Positions 20,301 through 60,743 of a DNA stretch of 64,000 nucleotides are shown piece after piece. The stretch is taken from positions 318,118 to 382,117 of the forward strand of contig JAHLKD010000046.1 of the NCBI GenBank assembly GCA_025526935.1, written 5' to 3'. This DNA comes from Cladochytrium replicatum (taxonomy: Eukaryota > Chytridiomycota > Chytridiomycetes > Cladochytriales > Cladochytriaceae). Below the pieces are notes generated by a model. The model was given only the letters and a program-made list of their open reading frames with translations. It had not been told where the DNA came from and ran no database searches. Every line of letters starts with the position of its first letter. Position 1 is the stretch's first letter. The translations under genes and the position numbers were made by a program.

Positions 20301-23300
20301 TATCCGCAGCGTCCGGCCCAGACCGCCATGTTGCTACACCGCAAAGCAAGGAAGATGAGAAGATCACACAGATGACGCTGGACGCTCTTGCTGATGTCTA
20401 TGTCAGCTTAGGCGAAAATGATTACTTTTTTGGATTGTGGAGACGGCGATCTTTGTATCAGGAAACTAATGCCGGAATTTCATATGCACAAACGGGAATG
20501 TGGGCACAGGCACAGACTATGTTCGAAAATGCACAAGCGAAAGCAAGGACTGGTGCCTTACCATTCTCCGAAGCTGAGTACAGCTTATGGGAGTCTCAAT
20601 GGATTTCGTGTGCTCAACGATTGCAACAATGGGACGTTCTCACCGATCTTGCGAAGCATGACGGCAACACAGAGCTGTTAGTTGAGTGTGCTTGGCGTAT
20701 TGGAGATTGGGAAGCAGAGCGAGAGTCGCTCATCTCGTCGCTTGCCTCCGTTTCAGAGGTGCCCACACCGCGCAAGAAAGTATTCGAGGCATTCCTTGCC
20801 CTTGGAAGCGGGAGCGACACAAATTTTGAGAAGGCGGTGCACGATGGAATTCAATTATCTTTGAAGCGGTGGATCGCCCTCCCCACATACGTGATGAATG
20901 CACATATTCCACTGTTGCACTTTTTCCAGCAATTTTTGGAGCTCACTGAGGCCGCAACTATTCGTGCAAATGTTATTGTGACAGATCATAGCAACGTTGA
21001 GACGAAACAAACGGAACTTAAAAACATTCTCCAAACGTGGAGAGACCGGCTGCCCAATAGTTGGGATGATATCAATATCTGGAGTGACTTGGTCGCCTGG
21101 CGTCAGCACATTTTCGCAATAATCAACAAAGCATACCTTCCAATGATCAAAATGATTTCGCAACAAGCCCCAAACAACCCAAACAGTTCGTTTGCCTACC
21201 GGGGGTATCACGAAACGGCGTGGATCATCAACCGTTTCGCCCATATTGCAAGGAAACACCAACTACCTGAAGTGTGCAGTAATATGCTGAGCAATATTTA
21301 CAAGCTCCCGAATATTGAGATTCAGGAGGCGTTCTTTAAACTGAGAGAGCAAGCAAAGTCGCACTTCCAGAACCCAAATGAGTACGCACACGGGCTGGAC
21401 GTAATCAACAATACCAATCTGATGTATTTCACGAATGCACAAAAGGCAGAATTTTTCTCCCTAAAAGGCCGATTTTTGGCAAAACTGGATATACATCAAG
21501 AAGCATTTAAACAGCTGTCGTCAGCTGTTCAAGTGGAAATGACTCTCCCAAAAGCGTGGGCAGCTCTGGCGAGATATTATGACCGCATGTTCAAGGAGCA
21601 ACCCACGGACTTCACAAATGGTGCGAATGCGATCAATGCGTACCTGAATGCAGCAGGACTCACAAACCACGCGAGATGCCGGAAATATATCGCACGTATT
21701 CTGTTCCTGTTGAGTATGGACTACAAAGACCAGATTTCAAACAGCTATGAAAAGTACCGTGGCGAAGTTCCACAGTGGTATTGGGTCACGTTCATCCCTC
21801 AGCTTCTCACATCTCTAGCCAGCAAAGAAGCGAAATTCGCGCGAGCAATTCTCATGAAAATGGCGAAGAATTACCCACAGGTTGTCTTTTTGATATGATT
21901 TTCTCGGGAGAGATGTTAATCATCCTCTTTCATAGGCGTTGCACTTCTCTCTACGTACTGCCAGGGCGGAACTTGAAATCCTGAAGAGACACATGCAAAT
22001 GCAAATGATACAAGCCCGTGCGGAAATTTCATCAAACTCAAGTCTGCGAGGTGGTTCCGGAAATAGTGATGCGACCGCGAACGGTAACAGTGGTACAACG
22101 TGCTCGGCACAAGAAGATGCAGAATCCTCGGTCATCCCACAACCATCTTCTGTGGCGACACCGGTAATGGGCGCGTTAAGCTCCGCCATTCCAACCGCAC
22201 ATACTCCCACCACTGCAAGTGCTCCAGAAGTTGCCACAACAGCAGCACCATCAACACCCGGTGCTACAGACAGCGATGGTTCGGGAAGCCAAGCTGTGGT
22301 TGGGGGATCGGAACACTCGCTCAACGGTTTGGCCGCGTCTCAGTCACCACGAGCTCAAGCGTCGAGCGGATCGACAGATTCAAATGGACAATCAGGGAAC
22401 CCGATAAGCCCTGCCGGACTAGCAGCAGCTAGCGCAGCAGCACAAGCACCTTCACAGCGATCACATCCATTAATGCACGTTGAAGAAGTTATGTCACTTG
22501 TCAAAACAGCGTTTCCGTTGCTTGCACTCTCCCTTGAGACAATGGCCGATCAGTTGACGGAGCGATTCAAACCGCTACCAGACGAGGACATATATCGATT
22601 GATTGTTGCACTGTTAGCGGACGGAATTTTAGTAAGTTCAAAAAATTCAATACAAATGTATTCTAAACAATTGTGCAGCAACTTGATCGACAATCTCCAG
22701 AGAATATGCATAATCAACTCTCTCAAGCGACCGAGCAAAACTTGCTCCGGTTTGCGCAGAGTATGTCGAATAATCATCGAAGGGTATGATCTCCGAATAT
22801 GATTTAAACGATAATCGCTTACAGGTCCCTCCATTTTGCATGTTTAGTACAAAGCGTCATTCGAACGGGAGTTCATCAAGCCCAAGCCCACTCTGTTCCA
22901 GCTTGTCGAAAAGTTCCGCGAATGGCGCGACAAACTGGAAATTCTGCTCGACCGCCGGCCCAGGCGCCAAAATCTTGAACATTTCAGCCATTACTTGGTG
23001 GAATTTGAGTACCAAAAGTTTGACGAAATTGAAATTCCTGGACAATATTCCTTGGTGAGTACAGTTGTGTCATTTTCTTTACGACTATCTAACGTTGTTT
23101 GTTGAAGATGAAAGACCTTCAGAGTCAGAAGGATTTCATTCGAATTGATCGTTTCTTGCAGCCTGTGGATTTGGTGAGAGGATATGGCAATCGTAGGATC
23201 ACTATGAAAGGTCACGATGGAAGCTTGCATCCATTCGTGATTCATCATCCATCAGTGCGAGTTTGTCGGCGCGAGGAAAAAGTTATGCAACTTTTCCGGA

Positions 23301-28883: not shown

Positions 28884-29084
28884 TAAGGATCGGCAGGTTT
28901 TAGGGTCTTTCAGGTCGGGTCCGGGTCCATTGACCAAATGTACCCGACCCGAGTGCCGGGTTTTCATGGAAAATTTTCGGGTCAGATCCGGGTCTGGTAT
29001 TGGGTCCAGTAGGAAAACCCTTCTCGGGTCAAAAATCAGACCCGAGTAAAACCTGATGTGATAGGGAAGCTAAAACGAAGCTAT

Positions 29085-29612
29085 TGTTCTTTCTGTCCAC
29101 GCGGACACTTTCCAAGAAGACGCAATATAAGTTTTGTATGTATCAAACAATTTGCATCACAACAGACATCGAGGCATGTATTTTCTGTCCACCCGGACAC
29201 TTTCTCAACTCATTGACGGTACTTCAGTGATCTCTATCAAGTACAACTAACCTCTCTATCAATGTTACTAGCAATAAGATTCTGTCCACCCGGACACTTT
29301 CTTAACTCATTGACGGTACTTGAGTGATCTCTATCAAGTACAACTAACATCTCTATCAATGTTACTAGCAATAAGATTCTGTCCACCCAGACACTTTCTC
29401 AACATTGACGTACTTCAGTTATCTCTACCCAATACAACTAACCTCTCTATCAATGTTACTAGCAATACGATTCTGTCCACCCGGACACTTTCTCAACTTA
29501 TTGACGGTACTTCAGTGACCTCTATCAAGTATAGCTAACCTCTCTATCAATTTTACTAGCAATAAGATTCTGTCCACCCGGACAGAATCCTCTCTATCAA
29601 TGTTACTAGCCA
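29085..29612 (+). repeat. ~95-bp tandem array of hAT copy 1
   Basis: Five to six imperfect units each carry the palindromic core TGTCCACCCGGACA, then a stretch ending in ACTCATTGACGGTACTTCAG, then a CTCTATCAATGTTACTAGCAA block. Units vary by small deletions. Confidence 0.85.
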
Positions 29613-29751
29613 GTTTCTTCCCTAGCTTATTATTATTTTCAGATCGGGTAGAAAACTATAGTGTCAGGGAAGTATTATAGCATACATTCCTGTAACATTC
29701 CGGCTAAGAACACCGGGCCAGTATCTTCCCACGACAAACAGTACAAACACC

Positions 29752-31429
29752 ATGCCTCGAACTACAAAGAACTAAGCGTTGAAACAATCCAGACCATCAT
29801 CTGAAAGAGAATCAAGTGCAGAACCTGTGACTGCACCTGAAACATCTCTGGCATCGGGTTCTGAAGTGCAAGAAGCAGAAGTTGGCCTTGATGTCAAATC
29901 GACAGATGTCAAAACGATAGCTCCTTCAAAGAAACCGGCGCGACGTGGTACTAAAGGGGATGCTGACTATTTGCTCATCGACGGACTCTGTCCTGCTTCA
30001 GACATACGACTTTGGAATCGAAAATTCAAAGCAAGCAGCCACAGCTACGACTCGGAGGACTTCATCAGCAACTGTCAAACAAATCGTGATGAATGCGGCC
30101 CAAGATTTGTTCTTCAAGGGTTGATCGACCGACTTTACTCTGACAGCAAGCTAGTTCGTCAAGCCCTGAACGAAATTCACGATGAATGCAGTGGACGAAC
30201 GGAATTCATAACAGCAGCAAACACCTATCGTATGGAGTGCTTGAAAAGCTCTTCCTTTCAGAAGGAAACAACATTTCTGGACTTTTACAGGCGGCAGGGA
30301 CACAAGTACGGCATTTACAGAGGAATGCCCGTCACTGCAAAGGTTTACGAGTTCCAAGCGACCATCAAACGAGCAGATGAGGACCGTGAAAGGACAAAAC
30401 AGGTCCTCAAACAGTCCGAACGACTGTTGAACATGACAAAAGATCTTGAAGAGACTGCAATGAACGAGAGAAGGACCCGCATTGCAGCAGAAGTGCGAGA
30501 GAAGGCTCTCATTGATGAATTGGGCAGGGCGGGTGAATTGATTCAGCACGGCGAGCACGAAGAGCTAGCAAGATTCAGGGAGATCACCGCTGCAATGGAA
30601 AGGGAGAAGCAGGCAACTTCCCAGGAGATTTCACAATGGAAATCACGTGTGACCGCTTTGGAGGGAGAGCTTGCTGCTCTGAAACAACAGGCTGGTCATT
30701 CAGAAGCTGCAGCACCTGCGGCGCCAACATCAACAGGCGGCCCAATAAGCATATCATCGGCTATCAAGGGGATTGGTAGAATTCCGAAGGTACATCAAAC
30801 CAGTTCTCCGACGAGTTCCATTGCTTAGCCTGCAGCAGCACCGTTGTACGGCTATCCTTTTGGTGAAAGAGGTCATCCAGGGTATCTGCTTCCAGATGCA
30901 TAAGATCAATGAGCTTATTTATGACCTTAAATTGCCGTCTCTTCCACCATCAATCAAGTACGTCAACGTAAACTACAAAGTCCTCTCCCGAAATGAGTTT
31001 TTACGGCCCATATTTGTTGAATCAGACAACCGCTCAAGCCGAATATCAACTTCAAGTAGCAGTTCTCGGAGCAGCCTTACTCTTCTTAGGGTGCACATTT
31101 TGCTCGGAAACTGGATACGGCACAATAATTCGCTAAGTACGTCTGCCACTATCTATCGCATGTTCAGGGCATTAGTGGATGCATATCCTTCTGAGTGGCT
31201 AAGTTTCTGGACGGCATACATCAGGCATCTTTCGTCCATAACGCTCCCTGAGGTGGATTGGAAACCTTGGAAGACAGGTTTAGCCAAGGATTTCATGCTT
31301 TCAAATGACGACATTGATTGGTTCATCAGGACTGGGTTGGCGAAGGACGTAACCAGTGGTGGATGGGACTCTGACGATATGAACCAGACACAGAAGCTGA
31401 TTTGGGCTGTTCCACCTATCAACTTGTGA
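29752..31429 (+). pseudogene. ORF1 of hAT copy 1, two disabling changes
   Basis: This is a close copy of the 560-codon ORF1 of hAT copy 2. The ATG at 29752 is followed by MPRTTKN and then a TAA stop at codon 8, where copy 2 has a sense codon. After the coiled-coil region a five-base deletion near 30820 changes frame (SPTSS then a stop), and the C-terminal third is open in another phase up to 31429. Outside these two changes the reading frame is well kept, so decay is recent. The upstream leader is shared with copy 2. Confidence 0.85.
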
Positions 31430-31718
31430 TTGTTCAGTGGAGTTTTGTTTCTTTTTATGATATTGTTTCTAAAATACACACTGTCCACACAGACACAAAG
31501 TGTTCATGTAAATATCCGTGGTCTAACTCAAAGTTCAATCAATCCTCTCCTGGGCAGCAAAAACCCGGCGGGTCAGGGTCGGGTACGGGTTTCAACCACT
31601 TCGGGTCCGGGTATTCCCTTTGTACCCGTCAGTGACCCGGCGGGTCCCCAGACAAACACGACCCGACCCAAAGGGTTTAATGCGGGTCGCCACTGAAACC
31701 CGGACCTGCCGAACCTTA

Positions 31719-34712: not shown

Positions 34713-35434
34713 TAAGGGCGGGTTTTAGGGTCTTTCGGGTCGGGTCCAGGTCCATTGACCAAATGTACCTGACCCGAATGCCGGGTTTTCATGAAAAATT
34801 TTCGGGTCGGATCCGAGTCGGGTATCAGGTCCCATAGCAAAACCCTTCTTGGGTCAAGAATGTGTCAGGGAAGCTAAAACAAAGCTATTGTTCTTTCTGT
34901 CCACACGGACACTTTCCAAGAAGACGCAGTATAAGTTTTGTATGTATCAAACAATTTGCATCACAACAGACATCGAGGCACATATTTTCTGTCCACCCGG
35001 ACACTTTCTCAACTCATTGACTGTACTTCAGTGATCTCTATCAAGTACAACTAACCTCTCTATCAATGTTACTAGCAATGAGATTCTGTCCAGACACTTT
35101 CTCAACTCATTGACGTACTTCAGTTATCCCTACCCAATACAACTAACCTCTCTATCAATGTTACTAGCAATCATGTTCTCAGTCTATTAATAACCTTATA
35201 GTAATCCTTTGCTATGCCGCCTCGACTACCTCTATAGTCTGACATGCTATCAACATCTGCGTCTGATGAAAGCATTGATGGTTGAACTGATCCAGCTGCA
35301 GGCTCCTGTCACACTGAAGAGTCAGCAAAACTAACGTCGCAGGAAGCTCTGGTGCACGCTGAGAAGCCGGGCCTACCTCGCTGGAGTGATTGGAAGAAGA
35401 TGTAGAGCTCGGCTCTCTTGTTGCCACCGTGTCC
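34713..35434 (+). mobile_element. hAT copy 5, rearranged fragment
   Basis: It begins TAAGGGCGGGTTTTAGGG, an 'end B' terminus with a four-base gap, followed by the GGGTC-rich block and about three array units up to 35170. It then joins the transposase N-terminal coding region in minus orientation (35212-35427). In copies 2 and 4 end B is followed by the transposase gene pointing away from that end, so here the fragment is inverted. No second terminus was found. Confidence 0.75.
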
Positions 35435-35579
35435 TGTTACACGTCTTAGCCAATAAAGGTTATTTGCTCATTTTTATTTTGACTCATTCCCAGGAAATCA
35501 GTTTGGCAAACAAGGGTCAGGGTTCGACTTGTACACCAGGAAGAGCACCATGGATTATGATGGGGACCTATCTAGCCTG

Positions 35580-35800
35580 TAAGGTTCGGCGGGTCCGGGT
35601 CGGGTCCGGGTTTCAGTGGCGACCCGCACCAAACCCTTTGGGTCGGGTCGTGTTTGTCTGGGGACCCGCCGGGTCACTGACGGGTACAAAGGGAATACCC
35701 GGACCCGAAGTGGTTGAAACCTGTACCCGACCCTGACCCGCCGGGTTTTTGCTGCCCAGGAGAGGATTGATTGAATTTTGAGTTAGACCACGGATATTTA
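35580..35800 (+). repeat. hAT 'end A' subterminal GGGTC/GACCC block
   Basis: After the 15-bp terminus the sequence alternates GGGTC and GACCC words (for example CCGGGTCGGGTCCGGGT), able to form several hairpins. The same block is at 31560-31718 (inverted) and 54589-54800. Confidence 0.8.
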
Positions 35801-35879
35801 CATGAACACTTTGTGTCTGTGTGGACAGTGTGTATTTTAGAAACACTATCGTAAAAAGAAACAAAACTCCACTGAGCAA

Positions 35880-37562
35880 TCACAAGTTGATAGGTGGAAC
35901 AGCCCAAATCAGCTTCTGTATCTGGTTCATATCGTCAGAGTCCCATCCACCACTGGTTACGTCCTTCGCCAACCCAGTCCTGATGAACCGATCAATGTCG
36001 TCATTTGAAAGCATGAAATCCTTGGCTAAACCTGTCTTCCAAGGTTTCCAATCCACCTCAGGGAGCGTTATGGACGAAAGATGCCCGATGTATGCCGTCC
36101 AGAACCTTAGCCACTCAGAAGGATATGCATCCACTAATGCCCTGAACATGCGATAGATAGTGGCAGACGTACTTAGCGAATTATTGTGCCGTATCCAGTT
36201 TCCGAGCAAAATGTGCACCCTAAGAAGAGTAAGGCTGCTCCGAGAACTGCTACTTGAAGTTGATATTCGGCTTGAGCGGTCGTCTGATTCAACAAATATG
36301 GGCCGTAAAAACTCATTTCGGGAGAGGACTTCGTAGTTTACATTGACGTACTTGATTGATGGTGGAAGAGACGGCAATTTAAGGTCATAAATAACCTCAT
36401 TGATCTTATGCATCTGGAAGCAGATACCCTGGATGACCTCTTTCACCAAAAGGATAGCCGTCCGACGATGCTGCTGCAGGCTAAGCAATGCAAGGGAACT
36501 CGTTGGAGAACTGGTTTGATGTACCTTCGGAATTCTACCAATCCCCTTGATAGCCGATGATATGCTTATTAGGCCGCCTGTTGATGTTGGCGCCGCAGGT
36601 GCTGCAGCTTCTGAATGACCAGCCTGTCGTTTCAGAGCAGCAAGCTCTCCCTCCAAAGCGATCACACGTGATTTCCATTGTGAAATCTCCTGGGAAGTCG
36701 CCTGCTTCTCCCTTTCCATTGCAGCGGTGATCTCCCTGAATCTTGCTAGCTCTTCGTGCTCGCCGTGCTGAATCAATGAACCCGCCCTGCCCAATTCATC
36801 AGTGAGAGCCTTCTCTCGCACTTCTGCTGCAATGCGGGTCCTTCTCTCGTTCATTGCAGTCTCTTCAAGATCTTTTGTCATGTTCAACAGTCGTTCTGAC
36901 TGTTTGAGGACCTGTTTTGTCCTTTCACGGTCCTCATCTGCTCGTTTGATGGTCGCTTGGAACTCGTCAACCTTTGCAGTGACGGGCATTCCTCTGTAAA
37001 TGCCGTACTTGTGTCCCTGCCGCCTGTAAAAGTCCAGAAATGTTGTTTCCTTCTGAAAGGAAGAGCTTTTCAAGCACTCCATACGATAGGCGTTTGCTGC
37101 TGTTATGAACTCCGTTCGTCCACTGCATTCATCGTGAATTTCGTTCAGGGCTTGACGAACTAGCTTGCTGTCAGAGTTAAGTCGGTCGATCAACCCTTGA
37201 AGAACAAATCTTGGGCCGCATTCATCACGATTTGTTTGACAGTTGCTGATGAAGTCCTCCAAGTCGTAGCTGTGGCCGCTTGCTTTGAATTTTCGATACC
37301 AAAGTCGTATGTCTGAAGCAGGACAGAGTCCGTCGATGAGCAAATAGTCAGCATCTGCTTTAGTACCACGTCGCGCCGGTTTCTTTGAAGGAGCTATCTT
37401 TTTGACATCTGTCGATTTGACATCAAGGCCAACTTCTGCTTCTTCCACTTCAGAACCCGATCCCAGAGATGTTTCAGGTGCAGTCACAGGTTCTGCACTT
37501 GATTCTCTTTCCGATGATGGTCTGGATTGTTTTAACGCTCGCTTCTTTGTAGTTCGAGGCAT
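35880..37562 (-). CDS. hAT ORF1: 560-aa coiled-coil protein of unknown family
   Basis: Intact single-exon frame. In order: a basic start (MPRTTKKRALKQ) that could be a nuclear signal, an acidic Ser/Glu stretch to about 50, another basic patch (KKPARRGTK, about 60-68), and a folded-looking region around 70-195 (DYLLIDGLCPASDIRLWYRK, FYRRQGHKYGIYRGM). A charged Glu/Lys/Arg-rich coiled coil spans about 195-310 (ATIKRADEDRERTKQVLKQS). A Ser/Ala/Pro linker at 310-360 leads to a C-terminal region of about 200 residues ending DSDDMNQIQKLIWAVPPINL. No transposase, nuclease, methylase or zinc-finger motif is visible. It lies next to the transposase on the same strand and is found in three of the five copies. 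A DNA-binding or transposition-accessory role is inference only. Confidence 0.8.
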   Translation of the reverse strand: MPRTTKKRALKQSRPSSERESSAEPVTAPETSLGSGSEVEEAEVGLDVKSTDVKKIAPSKKPARRGTKADADYLLIDGLCPASDIRLWYRKFKASGHSYDLEDFISNCQTNRDECGPRFVLQGLIDRLNSDSKLVRQALNEIHDECSGRTEFITAANAYRMECLKSSSFQKETTFLDFYRRQGHKYGIYRGMPVTAKVDEFQATIKRADEDRERTKQVLKQSERLLNMTKDLEETAMNERRTRIAAEVREKALTDELGRAGSLIQHGEHEELARFREITAAMEREKQATSQEISQWKSRVIALEGELAALKRQAGHSEAAAPAAPTSTGGLISISSAIKGIGRIPKVHQTSSPTSSLALLSLQQHRRTAILLVKEVIQGICFQMHKINEVIYDLKLPSLPPSIKYVNVNYEVLSRNEFLRPIFVESDDRSSRISTSSSSSRSSLTLLRVHILLGNWIRHNNSLSTSATIYRMFRALVDAYPSEWLRFWTAYIGHLSSITLPEVDWKPWKTGLAKDFMLSNDDIDRFIRTGLAKDVTSGGWDSDDMNQIQKLIWAVPPINL

Positions 37563-37699
37563 GGTGTTTGTACTGTTTGTCGTGGGAAGATACTGGCCCG
37601 GTGTTCTTAGCCGGAATGTTACAGGAATGTATGCTATAATACTTCCCTGACACTATAGTTTTCTACCCGATCTGAAAATAATAATAAGCTAGGGAAGAA

Positions 37700-37960
37700 A
37701 CTGGCTAGTAACATTGATAGAGAGGATTCTGTCTGGGTGGACAGAATCTTATTGCTAGTAACATTGATAGAGAGCTTAGCTGTACTTGATAGAGATCACT
37801 GAAGTACCGTCAATGAGTTGAGAAAGTGTCCGGGTGGACAGAATCTTATTGCTAGTAACATTAATAGAGAGGTTAGCTGTACCTGATAGAAATTACTGAA
37901 GTACCGTCAATGAGTTGAGAAAGTGTCCGGGGGGACAGAATCCTATTCTACCCAGACAGA
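37700..37960 (-). repeat. hAT array next to ORF1, minus orientation
   Basis: About two to three units of the ~95-bp repeat carrying TGTCCGGGTGGACA. This corresponds to the array upstream of ORF1 in copies 1 and 3. Confidence 0.8.
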
Positions 37961-37984
37961 CACAGTGACACTCAGTCTCCCAGA

Positions 37985-38530
37985 TTTCTATCCACCCGGA
38001 CACTTTCTCAACTCATTGACGGTACTTCAGTAATCTCTATCAGGTACAGCTAACCTCTCTACAAATACTACTAGCAATAGGATTCTGTCCACCCGGACAC
38101 TTTCTCAACTCATTGACGGTACTTCAGTGATCTCTATCAAGTACAGCTAACCTCTCTAATAATGTTACTAGCAATAAGATTCTGTCCACCCGGACACTTT
38201 CTCAACTCATTGACGGTACTTCAGTGATCTCTACCCAATACAACTAACCTCTCTATCAATGTTACTAGCAATAGGATTCTGTCCACCCGGACACTTTCTC
38301 AACTCATTGACGGTACTTCAGTGATCTCTATCAAGTACAGCTAACCGCTCTAATAATGTTACTAGCAATAAGATTCTGTCTACCCGGACACTTTCTCAAC
38401 TCATTGACGGTACTTCACTGATACTTCACTGATCTCGATCAAGTACAACCAACCTGTCTACAAATACTACTTGTAATAGGATTCTGTCCAGGCGGTCGCT
38501 TTCTCAACTCCTGGACGGTACTTCAACAGA
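37985..38530 (+). repeat. hAT array 3' of the transposase, plus orientation
   Basis: Five to six units in the opposite orientation to the neighbouring array, so the two arrays meet as a large inverted repeat around 37,960-37,985. The last units are more diverged (GTCCAGGCGGTCGC). Confidence 0.8.
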
Positions 38531-38556
38531 TGAACAGTCTAAACAACAATTTATAT

Positions 38557-40991
38557 TTAAAAGAGTGGGTTATCATCAGTTGCTTCCAACTCTAATACCA
38601 CATCAAAATCCTCGCCAAAATTATGCACCTTTACAAAATCCTCACTAACATCACTTTTTGAATCTAGGGAATCATTTTTGAACGGTTCTTCAGCACTCAA
38701 TTGATGCAACCAGTCATGACGGCACATCAACGCATTTATTGTTCTTGGAGCAAGGCGGTTGCGAGTTGCAGGTACCAAATCAACCCCGGCTGAAAACTTT
38801 CGTTCGACTGGAGCGCTTGTTGCTGGTATTCCTAAATAGTCCATTGCCATCTGGCTTAGGGCTGGAAAGTTCACACTTCCAACGGTCTTCCACCAGTCCA
38901 TAATATTGATTGGCTTCCCATCAGAATCAATACCGCGGAGTACCTGATCGCCAAGATAGCGATCCAGCTCATCTTTTTCCTCAGGAATCTCTTCTTGCCA
39001 GATGAAAACGGATCTAATGGCTCTCAAGCGTTCAGCGTCCGTTTTTTTCTGTCTATCACCGGAAGCTCCGCTCGAATCGTGTCGACGTTCTGGCGTGTTT
39101 CCAAAAACATCGGCACCACTGTTCTTGATTTTCCGTGACTTATACGATTCCTCCCAGACTTTCCGCACTAGGGTGACCTGATCCCTTCCTACATCTTTCT
39201 CCCAAGCCTTTGAAATTCGATAATATTGATCCTTAAAACGAGGATCGAGTACCGTAGCAACTGCTAAACACGGGCTCTTAGCGATTGAGTAATATATTCT
39301 CAGCTTATCTAGTGCATTTCGAAATGCTTTGGTGAAAGTTTCATTAATTCTGCATCCTCTAGGTCCTCCAGTTGATCGATAAGATCGTTGTAAAATGGAA
39401 TAACAAGCGGAAGTGTTGGATATCTAGACCCCTCGATTGCCTTTGATATAACCTCGAAAACACTCAAACCATCCCGGATCTTCTGTAGGACCTCCCATTG
39501 CTTTGGATTTATTGACCAATCTTTCAAAGAATCTTCAATCCAGCATATTTTGTCCATTGCCTCTCGTAGCTGTAAGGCTCGTTTGACCATATAGAACGTG
39601 CTATTCCAGCGAGTTGTCACATCGATAATTGGTAATAGAGGAACCAGTTTCACAAATCGGCACGAATCAATAAATGAGCTTCGTCGTTTTGGGGAAGACC
39701 GGATTCCTCTGACTAGCCGTCGAAGAAGGTTTATGACATTAACGCCGGAGTTATCGTCATTTGCGACTGTGTCCCCTGCGGGCGCGAATGTATCGATAAA
39801 ATCCTTTGCTGCAAGATTGATAATGTGTGCCATACACCGCATGTGTTGAGTTTCTGCAGACCACGCAATATCCCTATCTTCCAAGAGCGTCTCCAGCTTA
39901 GCACTCATGGTAAAGTTGTTTGAACCGTTGTCGGTTGTAATGCACAATAAGCGTTCACCCGATAGCATGCCAAATTCATCCAGACACTTGACAAGCTGAC
40001 TAGCCATGGCGACGCCTTCATGCTTTCCAACCATCGGAATCATCTGCAGCAGCAAGTCCTGCGGCTCCCATTCTTTCGTGATGAAGTGGGCAGTAATTCC
40101 AAGAAAAGAAATCTGGTTCTTCGATGTCCAACAGTCAGCTGTTATTGATACTTTTGAAGGCGAACCAACAATCAGACCTTTAATGAGCTCCTTCTGCCTA
40201 TCGTAAAGATCCATCTCCTTTTGCTTCACTGCTTTTGCCGTCTTTGGTGTATAGTTTGGCTGAAAAGTCTTCAGCATGCTGACAAAGAACTCGTTCTCCA
40301 CAACAGTAAAAGCCTGATTGTCTGCAGCAATCCAGTCCAAAATCGACAGCCACGCTACGCCTAGATTGAACACAAAGTCTTGCTCCTTCTCCAGCGAGCG
40401 GAAATTCAATGTCTGTTGTCCCTTGGGAACGATGTCCAACAGTCCAAGCGACCTGGCAATACTTCCATGGTGGTTTTTCAGATGCCGGAGGAAGTTTTTT
40501 GTTGATCCCGTCTTATCGACCTTCTGGCTCCACTTGCATTTCGCAACCAAACATGTTCTCAGACCATTATCAACCTTATAGTAATCCTTCGCTATGCCGC
40601 CTCGACTACCTCTACAGTCCGACATGCTATCAACATCTGCGTCTGATGAAAGCATTGATGGTTGAACTGATCCAGCTGCAGGCTCCTGTCGCACTGAAGA
40701 GTCCGCAAAACTAACGTCGGCAGGAAGCTCTGGTGCATGCTGAGAAGCCGGGCCCAACTCGCTGGAGTCATTGGAAGAAGATGTGGAGCTTGGCTCTTGA
40801 GCGCTGTTGTTGCCACCGTGTCCTGATACACGTCTGCATTTGTCCTGCATGCTGTTCCCCTCGCTGGACGCCTCTGAAATTTGGGGGGCTGGCAGACTTC
40901 GCTTCCGTGTGTCAAGCGGATGACTGTCCACCAGTCTTTGGCTTGCGTCGGACGCTGCCTTACGCTTTGGTTTAACAAAGGCGGCGTCCAT
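38557..40991 (-). pseudogene. hAT transposase (BED finger, hATC), one frameshift
   Basis: The frame from 40991 to 39309 encodes 560 residues. It has an N-terminal disordered region, a BED-type finger (CLVAKCKW then HLKNHH, about 155-180), the first catalytic Asp block SITADCWTSKNQISFLG, the second block CITTDNGSNNF, the C/H insertion motif MRCMAHIINLAAKDF and DVTTRWNSTFYM. Around 39,330-39,370 the frame moves by one base; the second part (to 38557) continues NALDKLRIYYSIAKS, VLDPRFKDQYY and the hATC dimerisation domain (DWWKTVGSVNFPALSQMAMD, SAPVERKFS, NRLAPRTINALM). Together this is a normal-length hAT transposase. No GT-AG intron explains the shift, so this copy is probably inactive, unless the base is a sequencing error. 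Confidence 0.93.
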
Positions 40992-41104
40992 TTTTGCTGT
41001 GGTGTGGCTGGAACGTTACCGACTCTAATGTCCAGGTGCACAGAAAGCACAGCTCTCGAGGTCTGTCGTGGTAGAAATTGTTTGTTACAGAACTTCCGTT
41101 GTGA

Positions 41105-41610
41105 CTTCTTGGAAAGTGTCCGGGTGGACAGAATTGTATTGCTAGTAACATTGATAGAGGTTAGTTGTACTGGGTAGAGATAACTGAAGTACGTCAATGA
41201 GTTGAGAAAGTGTCCGGGTGGACAGAATCCTATTGCTAGTAACATTGATAGAGAGGTTAGCTGTATTGGGTAGAGATAACTGAAGTACGTCAATGAGTTG
41301 AGAAAGTGTCCGGGTGGACAGAATCTTATTGCTAGTAATATTGATAGAGATGTTAGTTTGTACTTGATAGAGATCACTCAAGTACCGTCAATGAGTTAAG
41401 AAAGTGTCCGGGTGGACAGAATCTTATTGCTAGTAACATTGATAGAGAGGTTAGTTGTATTGGGTAGAGATAACTGAAGTACGTCAATGAGTTGAGAAAG
41501 TGTCCGGGTGGACAGAAAATACATGCCTCGATGTCTGTTGTGATGCAAAATTGTTTGATACATACAAAACTTATATTGCGTCTTCTTGGAAAGTGTCCGC
41601 GTGGACAGAA
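41105..41610 (-). repeat. hAT array 5' of the transposase, minus orientation
   Basis: About five units, each with GTGTCCGGGTGGACAGAA, lie between the transposase start and end B. The outermost unit has a distinct spacer (ATGCCTCGATGTCTGTTGTG) shared with the end-B side of copies 1, 4 and 5. Confidence 0.82.
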
Positions 41611-41816
41611 AGAACAATAGCTTCGTTTTAGATTCTCTATCCCATCGGGTTTTACTCGGGCTGACTTTTGACCCGAGAAGGGTTTTCCTACTGGACCCGA
41701 TACCCGACCCGGATCCGACCCGAAAATTTTCCATGAAAACCCGGCGCTCGGGTCGGGTACATTTAGTCAATGGACCCGGACCCGACCCGAAAGACCCTAA
41801 AACCCGCCGATCCTTA

Positions 41817-42029: not shown

Positions 42030-43913
42030 ACTGGTCAAACTGGTGGTACCGGTGTTTCTATGATCCGAAGGTGCTGAGTACGTAAAACTTGTAACAAGCC
42101 CTTCAAAATCGATTGCAGTCGTCTGCAAAGCTCTACCTCACGTGGTTTGCAAGAGAAAAAGGGTCCAAACGTGATGTTTTCACAGGTGCGCTTGAATTTC
42201 CTCCTCCCTGGCCTTTGTCCATTCTTCACACTCGCTCTTAGCTTGCCGCCTCCTCATAGGACTTGGTTCCGTGTGCAGGATCACCTTGCGTCTGGAAGCA
42301 ACTTGTGCCCCTCCCATTTGTTTAGCTTTCTGAAGTGTGACCCGCTGTGCTTGCTTATCTTTCTTGAAGCTGTACTGTTCTACTTTGTTTCTTCTCGACT
42401 GCTGCGCTGCAAAACTGGGATTCTGCTTGTTGTTGGTTTTCTCGTTGATGGCCAATGGTATGGTGCATCATCTTTATCATTGTCATCTGATTCCGTGTCT
42501 GGTGGTGTCTGTGGCAGGTGTCAAGTCTGTCCTCTACCCTTGCTGCGTGAGTTGGTCTTGACCTCCCCCTCGTCGTCACTCTTATCGCTTTCGAAGCTGC
42601 TGTCACTGTAATTGTGCTGTTACTGGACCTGTCAGTGTCGACATTGAATGATATATATGCGAATCACTAGTATGGGGAGGTTGAAGGAGACCAACTCAAG
42701 GGTATTAGTTTCTGCTCGTTATTTTGAAGTATTTTTAGCACGACCTCCAACTTACTCCTCATCATTAATTTCCTTTTTCAATAGCTTCAGCAGACATGTT
42801 GTCTTGCCATAATCTGTGTGGTATATTGGGGTTGATACCAATGCCAATCATCAGATTGCAGAACCATTTAATCTCCCGCTACAATTCATTCAATACGACA
42901 AGCTATGCTTTAGCGGATGAGCAGGCTATAATCAAGTTGTGTGGACTGCCAGCTGATTGCCACATTGGCAAAAATAACAACATTTCTAATAACACGCAAC
43001 TAGCACATTGATCGCTTGCCCAATCTGCATCGGCATATCCATGCGGAAGATAGTCGTTCAATTGGAATTCATATACACCATCCCGGCATATGTGTGGAGA
43101 TGGAATTCCAATTCGTGTGTAATGCAAACCAAAATCCCAAGTCCCAAGTAACTAGCAATATAAACGAGCTAGGGCTTTCATTTCTGACACGCGTGGTTCA
43201 ACCTGATGTTGTGCCAACAGATTGACTGCAAATGAAATATCAGGTCTAGGGCTTTCATTTCTGACACGTGTGGTTCAACCTGATGTTGTGCCAACAGATT
43301 GACTGCAAATGAAATATCAGGTCTTGTTATTGTTGCAATATACGAGAGTTTCATCAATGCAGAACGTAAATTGGTCACATCAGCATTGTATAAGATGAGT
43401 ATTGTTTCGTCATGTTCAGAATGAGATGAAATGGACGTACTAGCCACTTTAGTATCAGATTCCCATAAACTGAGCTCTTCAAGAATTTTCCTAACATACA
43501 AGGAGACAGTTGTGTGTTCACAACCTTTCACAGGTTTGGTACTGTGAGTACTCGCAGAATATGATATTTGTCCCCAAATTTGCACACATCAGTGAGATTG
43601 CGAGTATATCCTATATCTCTGTACTGCCCCAGAGGCATTTTAATCACTCTCTAGCGGCTGGATTTAAACCATATAAACTCTTTCCTCTGTCAGAGTTGCA
43701 TGAAGGAATGCACCTTTAACATCAAATTGATTTAAGTAGAGGGAACCTATTGCAGCAAGAGCAATAAGCAAAAGAATTGTGATGGTTTTTGTTACAGGAG
43801 AGTAGACTTGTGTAGTTGTCTTCACCTTCAATTTGAGAAAATCCAAGTTCTGCCCATCTTGCTTTGAAGAGAATGAACATGGTTAACCAGCTTACTCTCC
43901 TATGGAACAGCAA
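42030..43913 (-). pseudogene. Decayed Copia pol relic (RT to RNase H)
   Basis: Minus-strand fragments occur in the order expected for Ty1/Copia, with many frame breaks. They are reverse transcriptase (LLIALAAIGSLYLNQFDVKGAFLHATL near 43,750), the region before RNase H (LRSALMKLSYIATITRPDISFAVNLLAQHQ near 43,300) and RNase H (LPHGYADADWASDQ near 43,000). A piece at 42180-42600 (EPSPMRRRQ ... EEWTKAREEEIQ) resembles the segment before reverse transcriptase and is out of order. No LTRs were found. Its right edge abuts the next host-like gene. Confidence 0.75.
43169..43322 (-). repeat. 77-bp tandem duplication inside the Copia relic
   Basis: Units 43169-43245 and 43246-43322 are identical except for one C/T difference (ACGCG versus ACGTG). 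The duplication repeats the NLLAQHQ coding segment. Confidence 0.92.
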
Positions 43914-51748: not shown

Positions 51749-53188
51749 TAAGGATCGGCGGGTTTTATGTGGATCAGGTTCATTGACCAAAAATGTACCT
51801 GGCCCGATTGCTGGGTTTTCAGGAAAAATTTTCAGGTCGGATCCAGGTCGGGTATCAGGTCCAGTAGGCAAAACCCTGATCGGGTCAACATTCAGACCCA
51901 AGTAAAACCTGAAGTGATAAGGAAGCTAAAACAAAGCTATTGTTCTTTCTGTCCACACGGACACTTTCCAAGAAGACGCAATATAAGTTTTGTATGTATC
52001 AAACAATTTTGCATCACAACAGACATCGAGGCATGTATTTTCTGTCCACCCGGACACTTTCTCAACTCATTGACGTACTTCAGTTATCTCTACCCAATAC
52101 AACTAACCTCTCTATCAATGTTACTAGCAATAAGATTCTGTCCACCCGGACACTTTCTTAACTCATTGACGGTACTTGAGTGATCTCTATCAAGTACAAA
52201 CTAACATCTCTATCAATATTACTAGCAATAAGATTCTGTCCACCCGGACACTTTCCCAACTCATTGACGGTACTTCAGTGATCTCTATCCAATACAACTA
52301 ACCTCTCTATCAATGTAACTAGCAATACGATTCTGTCCCACCTGGACACTTTCCAAGAAGTCGCAACACAATTCTGGAACAATCAATTTCTACCACGACA
52401 AACCTCGAGAGCTGTGCTTTCTGTGCACATGGACACTTAGAGTCTGTAATGCTCCAGCCACACCACAACAAAATGGACAAGCGTGAGGCAGTGTCTGACG
52501 CAAGCCAAAGACTGGTGGACAGTCATCTGCTTGACACACAGAAGCGAAGTCTGCCAGCCCCAAATTTCAGAGGCGTCCAGCAAGAGGAACAGCATGCAGG
52601 ACAAACGCAGACATATATCAGGATACGGTGGCAACAACAGCTCTCGAGAGCCTGGCTCCACATCTTCTTCCAATGACTCCAGCGAGTTGGGCCGGCTTCT
52701 CAGCATTCACCAGAGCTTCCTGCCGAAGTTAGTTTTGCTGACTCTTCAGTGCGACAAGAGCCAGCAGCTGGATCAGTTCAACCATCAATGCTTTCATCAG
52801 ACGCAGATGTTGAAGCATGTCGGACTGGAGAGGTAGTCGAGGCGGCATAGCGAAGGATTACTAAGGTTGATAATGGACTGAGAACATGTTTGGTTGCAAA
52901 ATGCAAGTGGAGCCGGAAGGTCGATAAGACGGGATCAACAAAAAACTTCCTCCAGCATCTGATGGAAGTATTGCCAGGTCGCTTGGACTGTTGGACATCG
53001 TTCCCAAGGGACAACAGACATTGAATTTCCGCTCGCTGGAGAAGGAGCAAGACTTTGTGTTCAATCTAGGCGTAGCGTGGCTGTCGATTTTGGAGTGGAT
53101 TGCTGCAGACAATCAGGCTTTTACTGTTGTGGAGAACGAGTTCTTTGTCAGCATGCTGAAGACTTTTCAGCCAAACTATACACCAAAG
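51749..53188 (+). mobile_element. hAT copy 4, cut by Copia A
   Basis: It starts with the end-B terminus TAAGGATCGGCGGGT, a diverged GGGTC block, array units (51940-52350) and the transposase gene in plus orientation. The sequence stops at ACACCAAAG, in the middle of the transposase coding region, exactly where the Copia A LTR begins. The remaining part should lie beyond the nested elements. Confidence 0.85.
52473..53188 (+). pseudogene. hAT transposase N-terminal fragment (copy 4)
   Basis: Starting at ATG 52473, this matches the start of the copy 2 transposase (SDASQRLVDSH, ending MLKTFQPNYTPK) with several frame changes, including loss of part of the BED finger (LQHLMEVLP replaces HLKNHHGS). 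It ends at the Copia insertion. Confidence 0.85.
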
Positions 53189-53786: not shown

Positions 53787-54888
53787 CACCCCCTCAGTCA
53801 TTAGACCGGTACAACCGAGAGTATCACTTAATCAATCATATCTTCCTGTAAATGCTGAAGTTGATATTCCATTGAAAATAAAGGTGAGTTGTATGGACAT
53901 CGCCAGTCGGTCGTTCAAGATAGTATATTAAGTGAAGACTGACTGACTAGCCCCAACGAGCCCCTGTGTTTAAGGTATAATTTACTTCCAAGAGGTTTAG
54001 TTAAGATGTCCGCGATCATATCAGAAGTATCCATATGGTGTAACTCCTGATGTTTCTGTTCAACTTGGAGATTCACAAATCTCTCGCGAACGTCCATGTG
54101 TTTAGTCCGTTTGTTGTTGAACAGATTGTTTGCGATGGATTCGGTGGATTGATTGTCTTGCCATAAACGGAGCGGATTGAACGACGTAATCCCGATACCC
54201 GTCATAAGATTTTTCATCCACTTCATCTCACACGCTGGTTCGTTCAATGCATACAGTTCGGCTTCTGACGACGAGGCTGCAATAGTCTGTTGTCGAATCG
54301 ACTGCTAACTGATTGCCTCATTAGCGAACATTACCACGTAACCGGTTCGTGAGTATCTATCTGCATCGCCCGCCCAGTCTGCATCGGCATAACCTTGTGG
54401 GTTGTTAGCCAAATCAAACATGTAGAGACCGTCGGGTCTTAGCATCGGAGACGTGATACCAGTCCGTGTATAGTGTAAACTGTAATCCCAAGTACCGAGT
54501 AAATATCCTTGTAATCGATACAGAGCCTTTGATTCTGACTGTCGAGGATCAATCTGATGTTGTGCCAAAATATTGACTGCGTATGAAATAAGGTTCGGCG
54601 GGTCCGGGTCGGGTCCGGGTTTCAGTGGTGACCCGCACCAAACCCTTTGGGTCGGGTCGTGTTTGTCTGGGGACCCGCAGGGTCACTGACGGGTACAAAG
54701 GGAATACCCGGACCCGAAGTGGTTGAAACCCGTACCCGACCCTGACCCGCCGGGTTTTTGCTGCCCAGGAGAGGATTGATTGAATTTTGAGTTAGACCAC
54801 GGATATTTACATGAACACTTTGTGTCTGTGTGGACAGTGTGTATTTTAGAAACACTATCGTTAAAAGAAACAAAACTCCACTGAGCAA

Positions 54889-56570
54889 TCACAAGTTGAT
54901 AGGTGGAACAGCCCAAATCAGCTTCTGTATCTGGTTCATATCGTCAGAGTCCCATCCACCACTGGTTACGTCCTTCGCCAACCCAGTCCTGATGAACCAA
55001 TCAATGTCGTCATTTGAAAGCATGAAATCCTTGGCTAAACCTGTCTTCCAAGGTTTCCAATCCACCTCAGGGAGCGTTATGGACGAAAGATGCCCGATGT
55101 ATGCCGTCCAGAACCTTAGCCACTCAGAAGGATATGCATCCACTAATGCCCTGAACATGCGATAGATAGTGGCAGACGTACTTATCAAATTATTGTGCCG
55201 TATCCAGTTTCCAAGCAAAATGTGCACCCTAAGAAGAGTAAGGCTGCTCCGAGCACTGCTACTTGAAGTTGATATTCGGCTTGAGCGGTCGTCTGATTCA
55301 ACAAATATGGGCCGTAAAAACTCATTTCGGGAGAGGACTTTGTAGTTTACGTTGACGTACTTGATTGATGGTGGAAGAGACGGCAATTTAAGGTCATAAA
55401 TAACCTCATTGATCTTATGCATCTGGAAGCAGATACCCTGGATGACCTCTTTCACCAAAAGGATAGCCGTACGACGGTGCTGCTGCAGGCTAAGCAATGC
55501 AAGGGAACTCGTTGGAGAACTGGTTTGATGTACCTTCGGAATTCTACCAATCCCCTTGATAGCCGACGATATGCTTATTGGGCCGCCTGTTGATGTTGGC
55601 GCCGCAGGTGCTGCAGCTTCTGAATGACCAGCCTGTCGTTTCAGAGCAGCAAGCTCTCCCTCCAAAGCGGTCACACGTGATTTCCATTGTGAAATCTCCT
55701 GGGAAGTCGCCTGCTTCTCCCTTTCCATTGCAGCAGTGATCTCCCTGAATCTTGCTAGCTCTTCGTGCTCGCCGTGCTGAATCAATTCACCCGCCCTGCC
55801 CAATTCATCAATGAGAGCCTTCTCTCGCACTTCTGCTGCAATGCGGGTCCTTCTCTCGTTCATTGCAGTCTCTTCAAGATCTTTTGTCATGTTCAACAGT
55901 CGTTCGGACAGTTTGAGGACCTGTTTTGTCCTTTCACGGTCCTCATCTGCTCGTTTGATGGTCGCTTGGAACTCGTCAACCTTTGCAGTGACAGGCATTC
56001 CTCTGTAAATGCCGTACTTGTGTCCCTGCCGCCTGTAAAGTCCAGAAATGTTGTTTCCTTCTGAAAGGAAGAGCTTTTCAAGCACTCCATACGATAGGCG
56101 TTTGCTGCTGTTATGAACTCCGTTCGTCCACTGCATTCATCGTGAATTTCGTTCAGGGCTTGACGAACTAGCTTGCTGTCAGAGTTAAGTCGGTCGATCA
56201 ACCCTTGAAGAACAAATCTTGGGCCGCATTCATCACGATTTGTTTGACAGTTGCTGATGAAGTCCTCCAAGTCGTAGCTGTGGCCGCTTGCTTTGAATTT
56301 TCGATACCAAAGTCGTATGTCTGAAGCAGGACAGAGTCCGTCGATGAGCAAATAGTCAGCATCTGCTTTAGTACCACGTCGCGCCGGTTTCTTTGAAGGA
56401 GCTATCTTTTTGACATCTGTCGATTTGACATCAAGGCCAACTTCTGCTTCTTCCACTTCAGAACCCGATCCCAGAGATGTTTCAGGTGCAGTCACAGGTT
56501 CTGCACTTGATTCTCTTTCCGATGATGGTCTGGATTGTTTTAACGCTCGCTTCTTTGTAGTTCGAGGCAT
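54889..56570 (-). pseudogene. ORF1 of hAT copy 3, one-base frameshift
   Basis: The copy is nearly identical to the intact ORF1 of copy 2. One T is missing near 56038 (codons for TTFLDF), splitting it into 56570-55893 and 56136-54889. Nearly all other differences are single substitutions, many silent or conservative. Confidence 0.88.
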
Positions 56571-56724
56571 GGTGTTTGTACTGTTTGTCGTGGGAAGATA
56601 CTGGCCCGGTGTTCTTAGCCGGAATGTTACAGGAATGTATGCTATAATACTTCCCTGACACTATAGTTTTCTACCCGATCTGAAAATAATAATAAGCTAG
56701 GGAAGAAACTGGCTAGTAACATTG

Positions 56725-56947
56725 ACAGAGAGGATTCTGTCCGGGTGGACAGAATCTTATTGCTAGTAAAATTGATAGAGAGGTTAGCTGTACTTGATAG
56801 AGATCACTGAAGTACCGTCAATGAGTTGAGAAAGTGTCCGGGTGGACAGAATCCTATTGCTAGTAACATTGCTAGTAACATTGATAGAGAGGTTAGTTGT
56901 ATTGGATAGAGATCACTGAAGTACCGTCAATGAGTTGGGAAAGTGTC
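56725..56947 (-). repeat. hAT array of copy 3
   Basis: About two units with GTGTCCGGGTGGACAGAATC. The last unit shares the variants GTTGGGAAAGTG and ATTGGATAG with one unit of copy 4 (52240-52310). Confidence 0.8.
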
Positions 56948-57843
56948 CGTATCATCGACATGCACGGTAGTGTGTTTGCGGGTATTGTTTGTTGGATTGT
57001 ATCGCCAGAAATGACAGATGTCTGCAAATTCCGCACGAAACCAACACTAAGATATTGTTTCCAAAGAGTTTTGTACCATTCTCGAGCTGCCTGGTGTAGA
57101 CCGTACAGACTTTTGATAAGTCTGCAGACGATGGGTTGATTCTGGAAATCTACTCGTCCGAAACCATGTGGGAGTTCGACGTAGTTCTCTTCTTCCAGTA
57201 TCGCATTGAGATATGCACCCTTGATGTCAAACTGGAATATGATCATGCCGACTGATGCTGCTAATGCAATCAGAAAACGGATCGTGGACTTTTTCGTAAC
57301 CGGAGAATAGGTCTCATCGAAATCGAATCCTTCAATCTGTGAAAATCCTCGTACGACCCAACGTGCTTTGAATCGAGTAATATTGCCATGTTCGTCAAGC
57401 TTATATGTGAAAACCCATTTGCCCAATAATAAATTCTGTCCATCAGGTAAAAACGTTTCGGCCCAAGTATTGTTGCCGACTAGTTGTGTGACTTCCTCCT
57501 TCATCGCCGCTAACCAGAATGGAGCCTCATCGGATCGTGATAAAGCCTCACGAAGAGTCTTTGGTGCAGTCCGTATATTTCCATTCGCAATTGGTTGTGT
57601 TGGATATGAGGAATCGGCCTTCAGGGTCCAATCGATATTAGGAACGTACCAGGTAAACAAGGAATTTTGTTTCCTTTTGGCGTTTGACAAATTTGCACTT
57701 GCTTGACATTTTCGTTTTCTTGCTGCATACGCTTCGTCGACATCTTCTCCAATGAATTGAAGATCACTTTCGAGTTGTGCATCAGATTCTTCTACAGGAG
57801 ATACAGAACACAAATTCGGAGATTCTTCAGTAATGGATTGTGG

Positions 57844-58442
57844 TGTTAAGTATTTCGATTGATGGACTTGGCCAATCCAGTCATTGATAGTACAAAAACA
57901 CAAACGCCCGATATACAGAAATGTCACTCTTCACTGAGCAACATTTCTAACTATTGAACTAAAGCATATAGATGATGATCTATTACGAGTTTGGATACCT
58001 CCGGGTATTTCTTCATGGGTTATATTTATTGCGGCCATAGGTATAGTAAACTGTCATTACTTTTCTATCATCCACTTGTAGAAGTGAAGCCCGGATCAGA
58101 TCACAGCAAAGGTTTACATATGATTAACGCGTTTGTGGGAATCATGTGTGAGAACAATCCTGTTGAGGAGAGCTAGATCTCACGCACAGCTTAGCATGAT
58201 TATGCTTCGCTACGCCTGTGAGAAGAAGAGTCAAACCTTATCGCTGCGATCCAGATCTTCCGGAAGGAAAAGCCAAAACGACAGTACACTTATTTAAGGA
58301 GCCTGTGGCGATACACACAAGGAGCATTCTCTTGCGCTAGTACTTGTGACTCGCAATCTTCTTTATTCATCTCTTAGAAACATTAACCCGTGAATTAGCA
58401 ACACACACAACCTGAGGATCCAGACCACAGCTTTGTTCAACA
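57844..58442 (+). repeat. 5' LTR of Copia B (599 bp)
   Basis: TGTTAAGTATTTCG ... TTGTTCAACA. It directly abuts truncated Copia A sequence of opposite orientation and is followed 52 bp later by gag. Confidence 0.92.
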
Positions 58443-58493
58443 CAATAGTTACGAATCGTTGCTTAACACATTTCTTTGGACAACAACGACAAG

Positions 58494-60093
58494 ATGGGTT
58501 CAGGATCGAATGACGCCACATCTTCGCGGCCGAAGCCATTCACCGGTAAAACGCTGCAGGATTTTGATCTGTACATGGAACAAGTGCAGACTTACGCAAA
58601 CTTACGTGGCGGCGCTGGCACTATGCTTCTCCAAGAACCAATGGCTCTTCCTGATAGTCCGAATTACGAGGCGGAAGGAAATCGCCCACAGCGTCCGATA
58701 GTCATCGCCGGAGCTGCTGGCGGAGCTGCTAACGAAGCACGAGCACAATGGGAAGCAGAACTACGTGAACATTTGGCGATCGTCACACACAACAGTCACT
58801 TACGTACGCAATATCGTGCTGAGATGCAAGATTACCGTGCACAACAAGCGGACAATAACGTCGCAGTTGGAATTCTATGCGAATGTTTCCCAAAACGCGA
58901 CATGAATCGAGTCAGAGCTTATGCGTCAGCAAAAGGCAAAGTCGATGGACTTCGCCGAATTTTCAGTGCTGGCGGTCAAGCTCCGATCGAATCTTCTATG
59001 TGGGAGCAACGGCTGGTAGATCTGAAATGTACGAACGGTCAGTCGGCAGAAAGCGTTCAGCAGTTTGTGACCGACCTCACTGAGTTATTCGAACTCAAAC
59101 TGAACTCTTTACCGGACGAACTCGTAATCAAGGATCTACTAAACCGGTAAGTCGCAAAAATCACGATGCAGACAATTGAACTACGGACCCTCGTACCTTT
59201 TCTCGGAAAAATGATCACTTCTGCGTATGCCGAATGGGAACCGGCGTTAATACAAGATCCAATTGATGCTGCAAATCCGAATGCTCCGCGACCATTCCAC
59301 CAAAAGCCAACGCATTACTTCGAAACAGTGTCAAATATCTTGACCGACCTCAACCAATTGGTCCAACTCAACGTCACAATGGATGCCGGTGGGCCGAATG
59401 GGACAAAGAAGGCCATGAAGGCAAAGGCGAAGAAAGCGAAGGCGAAAGCGAAAGCCAAGGTTGCGAAGTCGGAGGATATTTGTACCTTGCATCCGAACTC
59501 ATCTCACACCAATGCTCAATGCCGTAAGCAGGGTGCCTCGGGTGGCTCAGGCAGTAGCGGTGGGAGTAGCAGTTCCACTCGGACCAGGCAGTCGCAGGAC
59601 TCCAGGTCGTCCACATCTTCTTCTGCAAAGAAGACAGATCTCACATGCAATTTCTGTGGCAAACGAGGACACAAGCAGTCGGCGTGTAAACGCTATCTCA
59701 CTGCAAAGAGTCTTTGTTTAGACACGGATTTTCGTGCATTCATTGCCAGCCGTGGCGATGCAGGTGATGATTCGTCGGAGGACGAATCTACCGCCAAACC
59801 GGTGTTGACCAAGAAGGTAATCTTTGACCTTACCCAACCTACTTCTGTTGATAAAGATGCTGACACATACATCGGAAATATGTTTTCGATAGTGAACGCA
59901 CACTCGGCACAGAAGGTTGTCCGTGTACATGTTCAAGCAAAGGATCGTGTGGGTTTGCTTGATACAGGCGCAACTGTTTGGATGACACCTAATCGTCATG
60001 CCTTTAGTTCACTGACGTATACGAATGACGAGGACGTGGTGGAACTAGCGGATAGTCATACAATTCCAGTTTGTGGTTTTGGAGATGTATCTG
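58494..60093 (+). pseudogene. Copia B gag and start of pol, interrupted
   Basis: From ATG 58494 (MGSGSNDATSSRPKP) the gag frame is open to a TAA at about 59149, where Copia C has TTA (LVAKI). It continues in frame with a lysine-rich stretch, the zinc knuckle CNFCGKRGHKQSAC and the protease motif GLLDTGATVWMTPN. It is cut after GFGDVSV at 60093 by the LTR of Copia C. The remainder (starting VLPNGRIK) should lie downstream of Copia C. Confidence 0.9.
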
Positions 60094-60692: not shown

Positions 60693-60743
60693 CAATAGTT
60701 ACGAATCGTTGCTTAACACATTTCTTCGGACAACAACGACAAG

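Follow-up and report, generated by a model that had tools for sequence, protein, structure and literature searches.

The hAT-type transposon at positions 35580 to 41816 of the 64,000-nucleotide stretch of Cladochytrium replicatum contig JAHLKD010000046.1 analyzed here (the window) belongs to a recently amplified, abundant family that carries two genes. Both genes lie on the minus strand, with the transposase gene first, followed by a gene for a 560-amino-acid protein that we call ORF1 (open reading frame 1). Copies of ORF1 within this one genome display a pattern of constraint during the spread of the lineage and of neutrality after insertion. On this statistical evidence, ORF1 is very probably a functional second gene of the family. 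Since selection has apparently preserved its function, ORF1 probably contributes to the spread of the element.

The genome searched for family copies was the 50.5-Mb assembly in 198 contigs. We gathered 49 ORF1 copies with at least 700 aligned bases, with the duplicate L009 excluded, and used those that exceeded 1400 bases (44 copies). Variants were scored against the majority codon and split according to whether they are shared among copies, with 21 multi-change codon variants set aside. The variants present in two or more copies comprise 36 nonsynonymous and 40 synonymous changes where a ratio of 2.19 is expected, which corresponds to an omega (a dN/dS-type ratio) of 0.41 (p = 9e-5). Singletons comprise 158 and 65 such changes, respectively (expected ratio 2.71; omega 0.90, p = 0.25), and the difference between the two classes has a p value of 3e-4. 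Omega was 0.50 (p = 0.02) for variants found in at least three copies, 0.36 (p = 1.7e-4) for variants found in at least two of 10 older copies, three of which are the window's own, and 0.72 (p = 0.004) for all variants pooled. The young loci were chosen by their score against the window protein, a procedure that favors copies with few amino-acid changes; nonetheless, singletons in these loci look neutral (omega 1.01). All of these statistics treat variants as independent though the copies are related, and they ignore gene conversion. A dN/dS-type check of this kind had been proposed in a preliminary description of the window, where it was expected that a host gene captured once would evolve neutrally. 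Since ORF1 bears a signature of purifying selection across transposition, it does not behave in this genome as such a gene would.

Family members are numerous and largely preserve the gene order. The 15-nt terminus has 458 exact occurrences in the assembly, and its reversed control has none. With 24-base patterns allowing up to two mismatches, the 3′ and 5′ ends of ORF1 were found 356 and 290 times and those of the transposase gene 247 and 264 times, and reversed patterns gave 0. The preliminary description had proposed a two-gene hAT family, and the linkage of the two genes agrees with this: of the 89 copies mapped by transposase 3′ ends listed for contigs C1 to C48, 61 have the start of ORF1 on the same strand no more than 4 kb downstream. 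The corresponding counts for the opposite strand and for the wrong side were both 0, and 200 trials with shifted positions averaged 0.57, with a maximum of 3. A transposase end was likewise found upstream of 62 of 99 mapped ORF1 starts. Because these lists hold exact matches only, the linkage figures are lower bounds. All of the best 74 of 1122 ORF1 candidates, which were the ones scored, are at least 96% identical to the window copy; 53 have no internal stop and 21 contain stops. At least 19 places hold both a stop-free ORF1 and a stop-free transposase of 819 to 822 open codons, as judged by matching the lists by eye. The 29 high-scoring ORF1 copies from outside the window differ from the majority sequence by only 0.2 to 0.5%, which points to a recent burst. 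One further locus, G000:C13:411549-421979, is a 10.4-kb stretch between two ORF1-type ends, with a minus-strand ORF1 on one side and a plus-strand transposase and ORF1 on the other, and has the appearance of a two-copy composite.

The inverted termini, subterminal GGGTC blocks, hAT transposase, and same-strand 560-amino-acid frame that had been described for positions 35580 to 41816 are all present. The terminal inverted repeat is 15 bp long with one variable base, which by sequence match is T at the ORF1 end (TAAGGTTCGGCGGGT, positions 35580 to 35594, plus strand) and A at the transposase end (TAAGGATCGGCGGGT, positions 41802 to 41816, minus strand, ending at 41816). Of the 22 GGGTC/GACCC motifs in the element, 20 lie within 180 bp of either end, 11 on the ORF1 side (block at 35595 to 35760) and nine on the transposase side (block at 41637 to 41801), leaving two in the inner 5877 bp. 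The family thus has the short termini and subterminal repeats of hAT elements. ORF1 occupies positions 35880 to 37562 on the minus strand. The transposase gene (38557 to 40991, minus strand) has a broken frame in this copy, where it is split into two open reading frames; in many other copies it is open over 819 codons, and intact copies encode 811 amino acids.

The transposase belongs to hAT by its C-terminal dimerization domain, Dimer_Tnp_hAT (PF05699), which is matched both in the window copy (E = 5.6e-21) and in an intact copy (E = 2.2e-20). As to an RNase-H-fold catalytic core, PF14372 was matched below its cut-off in one intact copy (E = 4.6e-5, 24.0 bits versus a cut-off of 27) and above it in other copies. 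There is also a weak match (E = 0.036) to PDB chain 2bw3, which is labeled only TRANSPOSASE and which we take to be Hermes, and a BED-like finger can be discerned by eye.

Perfect 8-bp target-site duplications, another hallmark of hAT elements that the family displays, flank six of the 11 elements for which both ends are in hand (28884–31718 in the window, L007/L008, L011, the related short element L048, L050, and L051). The element at 35580 to 41816, whose flanks agree at three of eight bases, has no such duplication, nor do L001/L002, L047, L049, and L052, and recombination between copies would be the simplest explanation for its absence from these five. The two additional ORF1 copies that had been reported in the window were both recovered. 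One is a 2.8-kb, ORF1-only derivative (28884 to 31718, plus strand) with a perfect duplication, GTACCCAG, and a broken ORF1 at 29752 to 31429. The other is a truncated ORF1-end copy (54589 to 56949, minus strand), with ORF1 at 54889 to 56570, again with its frame broken. A frame at 56893 to 57930 that by eye looks like reverse transcriptase abuts this truncated copy. The window also contains a truncated transposase-end copy with the A-type end, an array, and the 5′ part of the transposase gene (51749 to 53188, plus strand). Adjoining the main element is a decayed, rearranged transposase-end fragment (34717 to 35446), in which the end and array have one orientation and a 5′ piece of the transposase gene the other.

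Four of the duplication-bearing elements (L011, L050, L051, and 28884–31718) are ORF1-only. That elements without a transposase gene bear 8-bp duplications indicates that they moved, in trans. Among these mobile derivatives, L050 and L051 have an open ORF1, and by their sequence some ORF1-only copies can still make the protein. The junctions of L049, L050, L051, and 28884–31718 fit a deletion between same-direction arrays flanking the transposase gene, but the L011 junction, between arms of opposite orientation, is not explained in this way. Most ORF1-only copies are therefore explicable by recombination between same-direction arrays, an origin suggested by their anatomy. We do not accept the ORF1-only copies as proof of selection on ORF1: with same-direction arrays on both sides of the transposase gene only, that deletion is to be expected.

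The ORF1 frame has 590 codons and yields 560 amino acids from its first methionine. The preliminary description recognized no family for it, and searches of Pfam, the PDB, and protein families agree, giving no match except on or around a coiled coil. The only matches with E below 0.001, to PHROG 206 (1.4e-4) and HlyD (4e-4), both fall inside residues 218 to 358 of the 590-codon frame. We dismissed the PHROG head-scaffold match and the HlyD match (19.5 bits against a cut-off of 208.65), both taken to reflect composition, along with matches to SMC, Mei5, and GCN4, as coiled-coil artifacts. An origin as viral or bacterial cargo was likewise set aside: peptide-pattern scans, which reach close relatives only, found no ORF1 relatives in viral contigs or prokaryotic genomes, and a tblastn search of phages found none. 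Searches of the same genome with hAT domains for diverged relatives of ORF1 were filled by apparent members of this family, and two candidates, L053 and L054, turned out to be family members. In the full-length structural model, the sole better part is a helix at residues 195 to 318, with predicted local distance difference test (pLDDT) scores of 47 to 74 per 10-residue block from residue 201. Leucine, isoleucine, valine, or methionine fills 37% of the best-phase a/d positions of this helix, compared with 19% overall (best of seven phases), a heptad-like pattern. The N-terminal tail contains basic runs that by eye resemble nuclear-localization signals. Judging from this poor model, ORF1 may comprise a low-confidence N-terminal tail, a helical region, a long coiled coil at approximately residues 195 to 318, and a helical C-terminal region.

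Arrays of repeats lie upstream of both genes. The arrays of approximately 95-bp units that had been described do exist, but they form three stretches: one lies upstream of the transposase gene, and the other two, as opposed arms, lie upstream of ORF1. Arm 1 (37730 to 37947), composed of units of approximately 97 bp, lies on the ORF1 side, and arm 2 (37986 to 38525), in the opposite orientation, lies between ORF1 and the transposase gene. The third array (41112 to 41517) is oriented as arm 1. Most units contain the dyad TGTCC-N4-GGACA, and a single dyad, TGTCCGCGTGGACA, is located near the transposase-side end (41594 to 41607). The main element has 11 dyads and L052 has 18, and the number ranges from 3 to 24 across ten loci holding part or whole elements. 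A 37-base piece of the array unit occurs 1109 times in the assembly and its reversed control 0 times. By eye, 23 array clusters were recognized among 100 of the places. An exact terminus is found no farther than about 8 kb from 18 of them, one is beside an ORF1 copy, one is beside a transposase start, and three are near nothing listed.

The single dyad is kept in related short elements. Six of these (L047, L048, L068, L069, L070, and L071) form a family that shares the 15-bp termini, inexact in L070, and has exact or imperfect dyads. Elsewhere they are only about 75% alike to the main family (about 25% diverged, with L047 and L048 compared at one end). L047 (626 bp) and L048 (534 bp) are too short to hold either gene, no gene match was noticed for L068 to L071 in the portion of the output inspected, and no autonomous partner for the short elements was found. 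The exact dyad is present in L048, L068, and L069. When five short relatives were aligned with the transposase-side end of the main family, with L070 excluded for want of an exact terminus, the dyad window had an identity of 0.89 against a mean of 0.72, and the only windows above it lay in the terminus and in one GGGTC block. Such retention suggests a site that must be bound in cis, and the dyad is probably a protein-binding site.

To our knowledge, autonomous hAT elements usually carry one gene. The present family shares with hAT elements of the Ac, Hermes, and Tol2 type the dimerization domain, the 8-bp duplications, and the short termini with subterminal repeats, and it adds a selected gene for approximately 560 amino acids and arrays upstream of both genes. 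A search of titles and abstract openings in the open-access literature revealed no hAT family recognized as having a selected accessory gene, and no recognized exception to the one-gene pattern, although such a family may exist. Two-protein cut-and-paste systems occur in other superfamilies. In PIF/Harbinger elements (transposase plus Myb-like protein) and in En/Spm elements (TnpA/TnpD), the second protein binds element DNA. ORF1, in contrast, has no Myb/SANT match in Pfam or other DNA-binding match. VANDAL elements of Arabidopsis are Mutator-like. Their element-encoded second protein, the anti-silencing protein VANC, is characterized by binding to its motif and by removal of DNA methylation from its own family. 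The short target motifs of VANC occur in tandem repeats whose number varies, including repeats upstream of the transposase gene (PMC5735166). The arrays described here likewise contain a short motif in tandem repeats of varying number, a candidate target of ORF1. Our family differs in being hAT, and a Pfam scan that admitted matches up to E = 10 found neither DUF1985 nor DUF287 in ORF1; an anti-silencing role is proposed here by analogy. Kolobok lineages also combine a DDE transposon with accessory proteins (KolX and others), but they differ in superfamily and in their TTAA duplications (PMC9587614).

The preliminary description had suggested that ORF1 may aid transposition or counter silencing by acting on the arrays or on the GGGTC blocks. 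We propose the following model. The transposase, with a putative BED-like finger, a putative RNase-H-type core, and the hAT dimerization domain, inserts the element with 8-bp duplications. ORF1, expressed from its own gene downstream of the transposase gene, appears from the variant statistics to have been kept by selection during the spread of the family. Its product, probably a nuclear, dimeric coiled-coil protein, would recognize the dyads, both those upstream of the two genes and the one close to an end. Bound there, it may keep both genes expressed, as an activator or anti-silencer, and possibly aid transposition. ORF1-only copies are mobilized in trans. By analogy with VANC, we tentatively lean toward this reading, in which ORF1 is a predicted regulator or anti-silencer that acts through the arrays on both genes, while holding it to be somewhat short of probable. 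The stronger form of the proposal, that this is the hAT equivalent of VANDAL/VANC, in which an unrelated, independently evolved protein binds amplifying dyad arrays against host silencing, strikes us as unlikely.

Several observations weigh against a regulator that acts through the arrays. No DNA-binding domain was recognized in ORF1 in the Pfam scan, and single-sequence AlphaFold2 models were unusable, with a mean pLDDT of 43.7 for the full-length protein and 36.7 for a C-terminal piece. The short elements L047, L070, and L071 hold imperfect dyads only. Nor was the dyad found to be better conserved than the remainder of the array unit (0.827 versus 0.837 for the whole unit), in a comparison that was ungapped and anchored mid-unit and hence biased against the dyad. 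No ORF1 start was mapped for 28 of the 89 transposase ends and no transposase end for 37 of the 99 ORF1 starts, and L052 has an uninterrupted transposase yet a truncated ORF1. Finally, the selection signal on the transposase itself is weak and non-significant, in a smaller sample of 27 partial or full copies, though it has the same direction as that of ORF1 (shared variants, N = 25, S = 13, omega 0.77, p = 0.28; singletons, omega 1.04). This lack of significance indicates that the variant test has limited power for the transposase sample.

Selection on ORF1 shows that it works but not how it works, and an appreciable though lesser possibility is a functional accessory that does not bind the arrays. 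Such a protein could act via protein contacts in transposase import, replication timing, or chromatin, and the dyads would be bound by a host factor or by the transposase through its BED fingers. Indeed, the BED domains of Hermes bind a quasi-palindrome of the subterminal repeats (PMC10368747), so that the dyad could be a transposase site, and retention in the short elements is what would be expected of such sites. By this analogy, the finger domain of the transposase is the main rival for the dyad, and a serious one. However, the transposase has more obvious subterminal sites in the GGGTC blocks, and dyad arrays upstream of both genes suit a regulator rather than a transpososome.

Other roles for ORF1 appear improbable. 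If ORF1 were a host gene captured once and carried as a passive passenger, the stops in 21 of the 74 scored copies and the incomplete linkage to the transposase would be readily understood, as would the lack of relatives in the viral, prokaryotic, and phage searches; the evidence on ORF1 also comes from a single genome. We nevertheless rejected passive capture on the contrast between shared variants, which are depleted of amino-acid changes, and singletons, which are not. Moreover, ORF1 has its own array-bearing upstream region, its copies are at least as many as those of the transposase, and both genes are open together in the 19 or more places noted above. We give similarly little credence to ORF1 as a repressor or self-limiting factor that binds the arrays to shut the promoters. 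The mobility of ORF1-only derivatives with an open ORF1 (L050 and L051) would accord with such a role, as would the excess of ORF1 over transposase 3′ ends (356 versus 247), but this excess can stem from deletion between the same-direction arrays that flank the transposase gene, and a repressor would be less readily favored in a spreading lineage.

Elsewhere in the window, the host Tra1 gene spans positions 13299 to 21898 in two long open frames that include the Tra1 central and ring regions and the FAT domain, and it marks the genome as eukaryotic. A tandem duplicate of a 77-bp unit, with 98% matches, is located at 43169 to 43324. Frames between 56893 and 63593 resemble, by eye, pieces of Copia-type retrotransposons, with two near-identical gag-like frames at 58467 to 59150 and 60717 to 61598.

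A selected second gene in this family would add the hAT superfamily to those able to evolve a strategy based on two proteins. The many young copies, nearly identical to one another, the mobile derivatives that carry ORF1 only, and a clear candidate site make the family a convenient system in which to test how silencing is evaded by transposons or how they control their own promoters. If the family were truly a hAT counterpart of VANDAL/VANC, protection from silencing would account for its recent burst.
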